Positions 50,381-51,230 of a DNA stretch of 64,000 nucleotides are shown piece by piece. How positions within the stretch are numbered: the stretch's first letter is position 1; every line of letters starts with the position of its first letter. The DNA lies in contig JAKAGV010000002.1 of assembly GCA_021815405.1 (NCBI GenBank), forward strand, positions 248,001-312,000. The letters are read 5' to 3'. Under the pieces are notes generated by a model that was not told the origin of the DNA, did no database searches, and saw nothing but the letters and a program-made list of their open reading frames with translations. The stretch is from Bacteroidota bacterium. GTDB taxonomy: Bacteria > Bacteroidota > Ignavibacteria > Ignavibacteriales > Ignavibacteriaceae. A program made the position numbers and the translations under genes.

Positions 50381-50543
50381 ATTAAATACCTTATTCGATC
50401 AAATAAGTATAGAAAAATAAAAATCATAAAGTTTTATACTAACGAAGGTAAGATGAATATATCTATTTAAATAGTCAAAAAATTATCTACGAGCGGTAAA
50501 TTACAAAGCTTGACATGTCAAATTATTCTTTAACAAACATTTG

Positions 50544-50630
50544 CGGAAAGGGAGAGATTCGAACTCTCGGTACCCGTTAAGATACACACGCTCTCCAGGC
50601 GTGCCAGTTAAACCACTCCTGCACCTTTCC
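50544..50630 (-). tRNA. tRNA-Ser (GGA)
   Basis: 87 nt. Acceptor GGAAAGG/CCTTTCC with discriminator G, D arm, anticodon arm CACGC-CTGGAGA-GCGTG with anticodon GGA, long variable arm and T arm with GTTCGAATC. CCA is not encoded. Its 5' end is shared with the 3' end of a GIY-YIG gene on the same strand, and its first 30 bases recur 260 bp upstream. Confidence 0.97.
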
Positions 50631-50871
50631 GAATTTTTAATATTTCGTCAAGGAATTTTCTTCCTTGACCTGTTTTTAAGAACTTCTCTCGCTTTAATGC
50701 TTCTTGTTTTGTCGAAAACTCTTCACTGTATATTAAATTCCACGGAATACCTCCCTTGGTAAACTTATTACAACCTCGGTTATGTTCCGATATTCTTTTA
50801 GATATATCTTCAGTTGATCCGACATATCTCTTATTTAATTTGTTACTCCATAGAACATATACATAATGCAT
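50608..50871 (-). CDS. GIY-YIG domain protein joined to tRNA-Ser
   Basis: 87 residues. HYVYVLWSNKLNKRYVGSTEDISKRISEHNRG carries the variant GIY-YIG motif (YVYVL / RYVGS), the conserved Arg and His; TKGGIPWNLIYSEEFSTKQEALKREKFLKTGQGRKFL completes the small UPF0213-like nuclease domain. The last seven codons (RKGAGVV) and the TAA stop lie in the 5' part of tRNA-Ser(GGA). A copy of the tRNA 5' segment lies upstream of the gene (50896-50960), so the gene appears to have been placed at the tRNA start with a target duplication. The gene could be co-transcribed with the tRNA. Confidence 0.85.
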   Translation of the reverse strand: MHYVYVLWSNKLNKRYVGSTEDISKRISEHNRGCNKFTKGGIPWNLIYSEEFSTKQEALKREKFLKTGQGRKFLDEILKIRKGAGVV

Positions 50872-50895
50872 GTAATCTTGACTAATTTTCTTTAA

Positions 50896-50960
50896 GTGCC
50901 AGTTTCCGCCGGAGGCGGATCAGCCTTTGGCTGAAAATCACTCCTGCACCTTTCCGAATT
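50896..50960 (-). repeat. Second copy of tRNA-Ser 5' end with 30-bp insertion
   Basis: GTGCCAGTT (50896-50904) and 26 bases at 50935-50960 (including CACTCCTGCACCTTTCCG) together repeat the 35 bp at 50601-50635 with one mismatch. They are split by 30 bp made of two hairpins, TCCGCC-GGA-GGCGGA and TCAGCC-TTT-GGCTGA (50905-50934). Confidence 0.93.
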
Positions 50961-51084
50961 AAACGATGCAAATATAGATATTAAATTATTTTTAACAAAA
51001 GGAAGTTTAATGAATAAAAATATTTTCTTTTAGTCTCTGATTAATATTATTTTATGGCTCAAATAAAATATTAATTATACAACC

Positions 51085-51171
51085 GGAGAGATGCTAGAGT
51101 GGTTGAATAGGCTGGTCTCGAAAACCAGTGTAGGGTTTATCTCTACCCAGGGTTCGAATCCCTGTCTCTCC
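51085..51171 (+). tRNA. tRNA-Ser (CGA)
   Basis: 87 nt. Acceptor GGAGAGA/TCTCTCC with discriminator G, anticodon arm CTGGT-CTCGAAA-ACCAG (anticodon CGA), long variable arm GTAGGGTTTATCTCTAC and T arm GGTTCGAATCC. CCA is not encoded. It lies 455 bp from the tRNA-Ser(GGA) on the opposite strand. Confidence 0.97.
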
Positions 51172-51230
51172 GCAAAATAAACTAATCGAGTACATTTTTC
51201 TTACCAATCATCAACCTGCTGGAAATATAA

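Follow-up and report, generated by a model that had tools for sequence, protein, structure and literature searches.

Several described systems combine a small endonuclease gene with a repeated gene end or a tRNA gene. SegB, a free-standing GIY-YIG homing endonuclease of T-even phages, cuts tRNA-bearing DNA and drives tandem amplification, through recombination that the authors locate between the 5' region of the tRNA and the 3' region of segB (PMC13096335). In fungal mitochondria, the mORFs found in atp6, atp9, cox2 and nad3 are endonuclease ORFs (LAGLIDADG or GIY-YIG) that bring a replacement gene end with them (PMC3630166). No tRNA-linked family was found in the accessible part of the 2006 GIY-YIG superfamily survey (PMC1564403). 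Likewise, we found no published description of the bacterial elements considered here in the literature searched, which did not cover most subscription papers or any preprints; an earlier description of bacterial tRNA-gene GIY-YIG elements elsewhere cannot be excluded.

Here we analyse a locus at which a small GIY-YIG gene runs into tRNA-Ser(GGA), within a stretch of 64,000 nucleotides (the window, meaning the whole stretch of DNA analysed), together with its relatives across the Bacteroidota. We read these genes as minimal homing elements: they would cleave a tRNA gene, insert a copy of themselves and leave the tRNA restored. We give this reading a probability of roughly 0.7; cleavage, the position of the cut, the repair and the transfer are all inferred.

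Anatomy of the tRNA-Ser(GGA) locus

A preliminary description of the locus had placed the last seven codons and the stop of the GIY-YIG gene inside the tRNA, noted a second, 35-bp copy of the tRNA start with one mismatch on the far side of the gene, and proposed a unit of about 325 bp between these direct repeats. The features that we observed are as follows:

51085-51173, plus strand: tRNA-Ser(CGA), the divergent neighbour, outside the element and used as synteny marker for empty sites (ARAGORN)
50969-50999, minus strand: tRNA promoter, with -33 TTTG at 50999-50996, a 19-nt spacer and -7 TATATTTG at 50976-50969
50935-50960, minus strand: displaced tRNA-Ser start, a 5-nt leader plus tRNA positions 1-21, 25/26 identical to 50610-50635
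50905-50934, minus strand: 30-bp double hairpin made of two perfect 15-bp palindromes side by side, within the D-loop of the displaced copy
50896-50904, minus strand: displaced tRNA positions 22-30, AACTGGCAC, identical to 50601-50609
50608-50871, minus strand: GIY-YIG nuclease ORF, 87 aa, MHYVYVL...RKGAGVV (ORF call and Pfam)
50608-50630, minus strand: overlap of the ORF end with the tRNA 5' end, seven codons plus the stop TAA (ORF and tRNA coordinates)
50543-50630, minus strand: intact tRNA-Ser(GGA) (ARAGORN; Rfam RF00005, 51.4 bits)

The order along the minus strand is promoter, displaced tRNA 1-21, double hairpin, tRNA 22-30, GIY-YIG ORF and intact tRNA-Ser(GGA). The overlap is as the preliminary description had it, the stop TAA of the 87-aa ORF consisting of D-loop bases of tRNA-Ser(GGA), and the repeat period is indeed 325 bp. 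The second copy of the tRNA start also stands in substance (25/26 identical bases between 50610-50635 and 50935-50960, plus the nine bases AACTGGCAC at 50601-50609 and 50896-50904), but it is not continuous: the 30-bp double hairpin splits its D-loop between tRNA positions 21 and 22, reading TCAGCC-AAA-GGCTGA and then TCCGCC-TCC-GGCGGA on the minus strand. Judging from sequence alone, the 5' part of the intact tRNA appears to be the part rebuilt by the element. The promoter at 50969-50999 matches TTTG/TANNTTTG at 10/10 positions, a perfect Bacteroidota-type promoter by consensus match, without an expression test.

Chance can be ruled out as the source of the repeat at tRNA-Ser(GGA) because the arrangement recurs at many loci: it is seen again at L006, L007, L008 and L127, and the family adjoins tRNA genes at 116/126 loci. 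A group I intron with an endonuclease was likewise rejected, with no intron family in the Rfam scan and the tRNA intact beside the ORF. Separately, Rfam RF04351 (plastid psbI-rps4 3'UTR) has a hit on the strand antisense to each tRNA-Ser gene, at 51120-51172 (51.9 bits) and 50544-50586 (31.2 bits), both below the cut-off of 68; this family may be a partial model of antisense tRNA-Ser.

The 87-aa protein qualifies as a member of the GIY-YIG superfamily by its fold and its conserved Tyr, Tyr, Arg and Glu, and nuclease activity is inferred. It matches Pfam GIY-YIG (PF01541) with E = 5.9e-18, the catalytic-motif residues Y5, Y16, R26, H30 and E62 are kept in 24 relatives, and its AlphaFold model has a pLDDT of 89.5. 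The solved structures nearest by sequence and fold are UPF0213 (1ywl, 1zg2), then Slx1 and I-TevI. Unlike typical homing enzymes it is a bare GIY-YIG domain, with no separate DNA-binding domain. Profile matches to homing enzymes are weak: the NCBIfam group I intron endonuclease model covers only 31 residues, below its cut-off, PHROG homing families match weakly, and the matches of phage homing-endonuclease profiles are confined to the catalytic core. RKGAGVV-like tails, for which the preliminary description had suggested looking in other GIY-YIG proteins, do recur.

Empty and occupied sites

Empty sites in relatives, a check proposed in the preliminary description, were observed. Seven genomes of the same genus (G002, G003, G005, G006, G009, G011 and G012) have an empty tRNA-Ser(GGA) without a nuclease gene, with tRNA identity of 91-98%; in G002, G003, G005 and G012, tRNA-Ser(CGA) lies upstream on the opposite strand, as in the window. 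Occupied sites in the genus were seen in G000 (the window's own genome), G007 and G008, and in G004 the end of a nuclease gene runs into the tRNA at a contig edge. There is a second empty site at tRNA-Asp, where G041 lacks the gene and G013 has five copies with a 315-bp period; the flanks of the two sites share 73% identity over the upstream 1.2 kb and 68% in the downstream gene. Empty and occupied alleles at a homologous site, a criterion for free-standing homing endonucleases, are present, and direct repeats of tRNA sequence flank many other loci as well. Neither of the two findings that the preliminary description had named as refuting it, a lack of empty sites in all relatives or a lack of direct repeats elsewhere, was borne out. 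These empty sites and repeats support the earlier suggestion of a minimal homing or integrating element that rebuilds the tRNA. The word homing remains a well-supported inference, with cleavage and transfer undemonstrated.

The position of the promoter was compared between nine empty sites (seven of the same genus, two of other genera of the family) and 19 occupied sites. A promoter scoring 9-10 of 10 stands about 12 nt before the tRNA in 7/9 empty sites. At the occupied sites, a score of at least 9 was observed before 6/19 displaced copies and 0/19 intact tRNAs (shuffled rate <2%); the window, L126, L127, L128 and L144 have one in front of the displaced copy. The one in the window is of the same type as the promoter before the tRNA at empty sites, and at a similar distance, and no promoter was found by consensus score before the intact tRNA-Ser(GGA) there. 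At the window locus, with a perfect promoter before the displaced start and none before the intact tRNA, the element therefore lies between the promoter and the tRNA body, which supports, for this locus, the earlier suggestion of a tRNA transcript running through the nuclease gene.

From these observations we propose the following sequence of events. The GIY-YIG nuclease would cut the gene for tRNA-Ser(GGA); the likeliest site is GGTTT^AAC in the D-loop, where the displaced copy holds the double hairpin. The break would be repaired by recombination with an element-bearing copy, the broken ends matching the donor on both sides, and repair would insert 325 bp (double hairpin - tRNA 22-30 - nuclease gene - tRNA 1-21). 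The downstream junction would thereby regain an intact tRNA, with the old promoter and old tRNA start staying behind upstream. Transcription of the nuclease gene would then start at the promoter of the tRNA itself, and the tRNA would be released from the joint transcript by RNase P. The hairpin would destroy the cut site of the displaced copy. The intact tRNA would still be a target, and further insertions or unequal repair could build tandem arrays outward from it. Relatives would act likewise at most other tRNA genes, upstream or (as a mirror image) downstream of the intact tRNA. The arrangement seen in the window and in each of the mirror forms agrees with this cut-and-repair geometry.

Occupied sites have an intact tRNA whose D-arm is the same as in several empty sites. 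That tRNA may therefore be cut now and then, with arrays as a by-product, and the immunity of the donor is left unexplained. In the occupied allele the displaced copy is interrupted by the hairpin, yet the intact tRNA keeps a D-arm as in several empty sites; a donor tRNA with a resistance mutation is unsupported in the D-arm. Against homing it must be said that cleavage and movement have never been observed, that the protein has no separate DNA-binding domain and that no carrier was found among viral contigs or in the phage and plasmid collections. In its favour stand the observed anatomy and repeats, the empty sites, the conserved catalytic residues and the position of the promoter, and from the family data given below the tRNA linkage, the agreement of protein clade with tRNA isotype, the hairpin positions and the polarity of the arrays. 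By analogy there is also the precedent of SegB, which cuts tRNA-bearing DNA with amplification by recombination (PMC13096335).

Distribution, tRNA linkage and hairpins of the family

Matches to the nuclease were present in 86/97 relatives and, in a phylum-wide draw, in 195/296 genomes, with at most 18 per genome. We observed an intact tRNA gene within 300 nt at 116 of the 126 inspected loci, on the same strand in all cases (116/116). These 126 loci are the better-scoring matches and no random sample, and several of the ten loci without a near tRNA are close to contig ends. With 22 anticodons seen at the tRNA-linked loci, the family is phylum-wide and found at most tRNA isotypes. Named relatives come from Ignavibacteria, Chlorobiaceae, Chitinophagaceae, Flavobacteriales and one contig labelled Portnoybacteria. 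On this last contig, outside the Bacteroidota (L145, JACQXN010000001.1), a related gene runs into tRNA-Ser(GGA), which may reflect cross-phylum transfer or a binning error. Carriage by phages or plasmids was rejected: a contig scan found no relatives in viral contigs (with a Ser-only alignment, the diverse family alignment lacking enough conserved stretches), and phage and plasmid collections gave only distant matches.

The 116 loci fall into two mirror forms, with the gene upstream of the intact tRNA in 31 and downstream in 85. Beyond the gene, the upstream form typically has a 5' tRNA piece and the downstream form a 3' tRNA piece. The stop codon lies inside the tRNA in 15/33 upstream genes, and RNase P cleavage would therefore take off the end of the message; that this loss limits nuclease expression is speculation. 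At several downstream loci a terminator-like hairpin and T-run, judged by eye, stand between tRNA and gene, so expression of the nuclease in this form may, by inference, depend on read-through. In the window's own genome, L002 (G000:C10:73394-76642) holds tRNA-Lys(TTT), then a broken GIY-YIG gene, then a second tRNA copy with its anticodon arm exchanged for another hairpin; it is an old relic of the mirror form.

In a tree of 133 proteins, with many forks unresolved, we counted 13 changes of tRNA isotype, whereas shuffles gave a mean of 67 and a minimum of 60. This match between clade and tRNA could, however, arise if the tRNA piece is simply inherited together with the gene, and need not involve recognition by the protein. 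More than one gene copy is present at 42/126 loci. Some arrays have a whole copy at one end and a broken one at the other. In 15 such cases the broken copy was the distal one with respect to the intact tRNA; in two it was the proximal one, but these two are one locus counted twice (L009 and L129), making the ratio 15:1. Such polarity is what one would expect of arrays that gain their new copies at the intact tRNA. Contigs often end a few hundred bases from nuclease genes (L073, L094, L096, L103, L113, L120, L124 and others), as expected if repeats break assemblies, and draft genomes probably under-count arrays. A comparison of Cys arrays across genus g37, split over contigs, was left out.

These patterns bear on two alternatives to homing. 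One is that the loci are remnants of integrase-mediated insertion at tRNA attachment sites, with the GIY-YIG gene as a passenger; tRNA genes are classic integrase sites, and the element does rebuild the tRNA at one end. We find this hardly credible, considering that an integrase would not fit into the 325-bp unit, in which the GIY-YIG ORF is the only one, that insertions occur on both sides and in several different tRNA arms, and that what stays constant between array units is the GIY-YIG gene. An integrase island was rejected, with no integrase gene in the 325-bp unit. The other alternative is a domesticated host nuclease, vertically inherited and not mobile, serving for example tRNA-gene maintenance or expression control. 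Its patchy presence within one genus, the many broken copies and tandem arrays, the many different tRNAs on both of their sides and the remnants of tRNA duplications make this very unlikely, even though such a role would suit the conserved active-site motif, the co-transcription with an essential tRNA and the wide occurrence across the phylum.

A perfect hairpin abuts tRNA sequence in 76/111 far-side windows, and 35/111 have none by the criteria used. Control windows with any hairpin at all number 112/765, a loose yardstick, counted differently, as the far-side criterion is stricter. The hairpin position is fixed by clade:

Pro: 28/46
Ala and Lys: about 26/44, exact replacement of the 17-nt anticodon arm
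Cys: 38/57
Asp: 51/60
Met: 58/62
Asn: 23/34 or 57/61
Ser double hairpins, no bases lost: D-loop 20-21/21-22 or T-loop 70/71

At L125-L128 the double hairpin is at the same tRNA position as in the window, and at L138 (Ser) there is one in the anticodon loop as well. Double hairpins are 99.3% paired, with 26 cells changed on both sides versus 9 in shuffles. This count is biased, most sequences having been picked by palindrome pattern, and self-correction of palindromes could yield preserved pairing without selection.

Double hairpins are also dispersed in genomes, in 11 places in G000 (e.g., L174-L180), 17 in G004 and 12 in G019. The dispersed 30-bp form (TSNGCC-NNN-GGCNSA twice) usually stands after TT or TC and before A or G, and some examples are apparently within coding sequence (30 bp = 10 codons). 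A hairpin exclusive to the nuclease element is ruled out by these occurrences away from tRNA genes. At L190 (G004:C78:64200-66824, 1254-1634), four 5' fragments of tRNA-Ser(TGA), each with a D-loop double hairpin, follow one another with a period of mostly 107, no nuclease gene being found, and are succeeded by an intact tRNA-Ser(TGA); this is perhaps a deletion derivative or a non-autonomous form. L177 (G000:C16:253000-260000) is a repeat array of four double hairpins about 0.9 kb apart in similar flanking sequence.

The hairpins could also point to a structure-specific, Slx1-like enzyme that cuts extruded tRNA arms or palindromes (hairpins, cruciforms). The hairpins would then be true ends or cargo, and movement would proceed by hairpin capture, without sequence-specific homing. 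Slx1 is among the nearest solved relatives, a DNA-binding domain is absent, the hairpins sit exactly in tRNA loops or exactly replace the anticodon arm, and double hairpins are dispersed as well. However, protein clades track tRNA isotype, a hairpin is missing, by the criteria used, from the 35 far-side windows, the closest match is UPF0213 and not Slx1, and double hairpins of this type were not found in several genomes rich in these nuclease genes; on balance we think this explanation unlikely. Only as a tentative and doubtful idea do we raise a phylum-wide class of mobile elements of ~300 bp in which a stand-alone GIY-YIG domain reads the structure of tRNA genes and not their sequence. Hairpins would form the ends of such elements, tRNA loops would serve for docking and the tRNA promoter would drive them, which would amount to a new transposition mechanism. 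Under homing at tRNA genes, the reading that we prefer, the role of the hairpin and transfer between cells are inferred.

Comparison with known systems

Since tRNA genes are essential and conserved, every genome offers targets to an element that cuts and rebuilds them, and such an element is hard to delete without risk. If confirmed, the tRNA-gene GIY-YIG element would rank with the smallest autonomous mobile elements of bacteria. The repeated small GIY-YIG genes of many Bacteroidota genomes would then be explained, as would many partial copies of tRNAs and some of the breaks in assemblies, and a natural set of tRNA-gene-specific cutters would be available. The questions raised are by what means a nuclease of 80 aa locates one particular tRNA gene, why hairpins so often break the displaced copy and how the rebuilt tRNA avoids cutting.

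Mobile palindromic repeats, such as the double-hairpin elements of fungal mitochondria and the Rickettsia palindromic elements, are short GC-rich hairpins that are dispersed, some of them inside genes. The hairpins of the window differ from these in being tied to tRNA loops and a nuclease gene, a comparison made without aligning sequences. Integrative elements at tRNA sites likewise insert in a tRNA gene, are flanked by direct repeats and restore the tRNA at one end, but they carry an integrase and are kilobases long, whereas the window element is 325 bp with a nuclease only. Stand-alone GIY-YIG proteins of the UPF0213/YazA type share the bare GIY-YIG domain of the window protein and include its closest solved structures; to our knowledge they are not tRNA-linked or mobile, and a control clade of comparable stand-alone genes, taken from the same genomes, has 0/27 members at tRNA genes.

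Fungal mORFs resemble the window element in carrying in a replacement gene end and displacing the original one, a likeness of layout for which no homology test was made. They differ in that their hosts are protein-coding mitochondrial genes with a replacement end that differs in DNA, whereas the window concerns bacterial tRNA genes with nearly identical ends. The weak profile matches, which do not include a comparison with SegB itself, give no full-length relation to SegB or the Seg endonucleases. The SegB-like location beside tRNA genes is shared (116/126 loci). Like the window family, SegB is a GIY-YIG nuclease that adjoins tRNA genes of many isotypes and occurs in tandem copies. It differs in residing in phage genomes, in belonging to a distinct sequence family and in having no reported tRNA rebuilding with a displaced copy or hairpins therein; the window family, in contrast, is chromosomal, only ~80 aa in size and represented by one clade per tRNA type. 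SegB is the nearest experimental precedent for the window element, and the fungal mORF is the nearest in layout.
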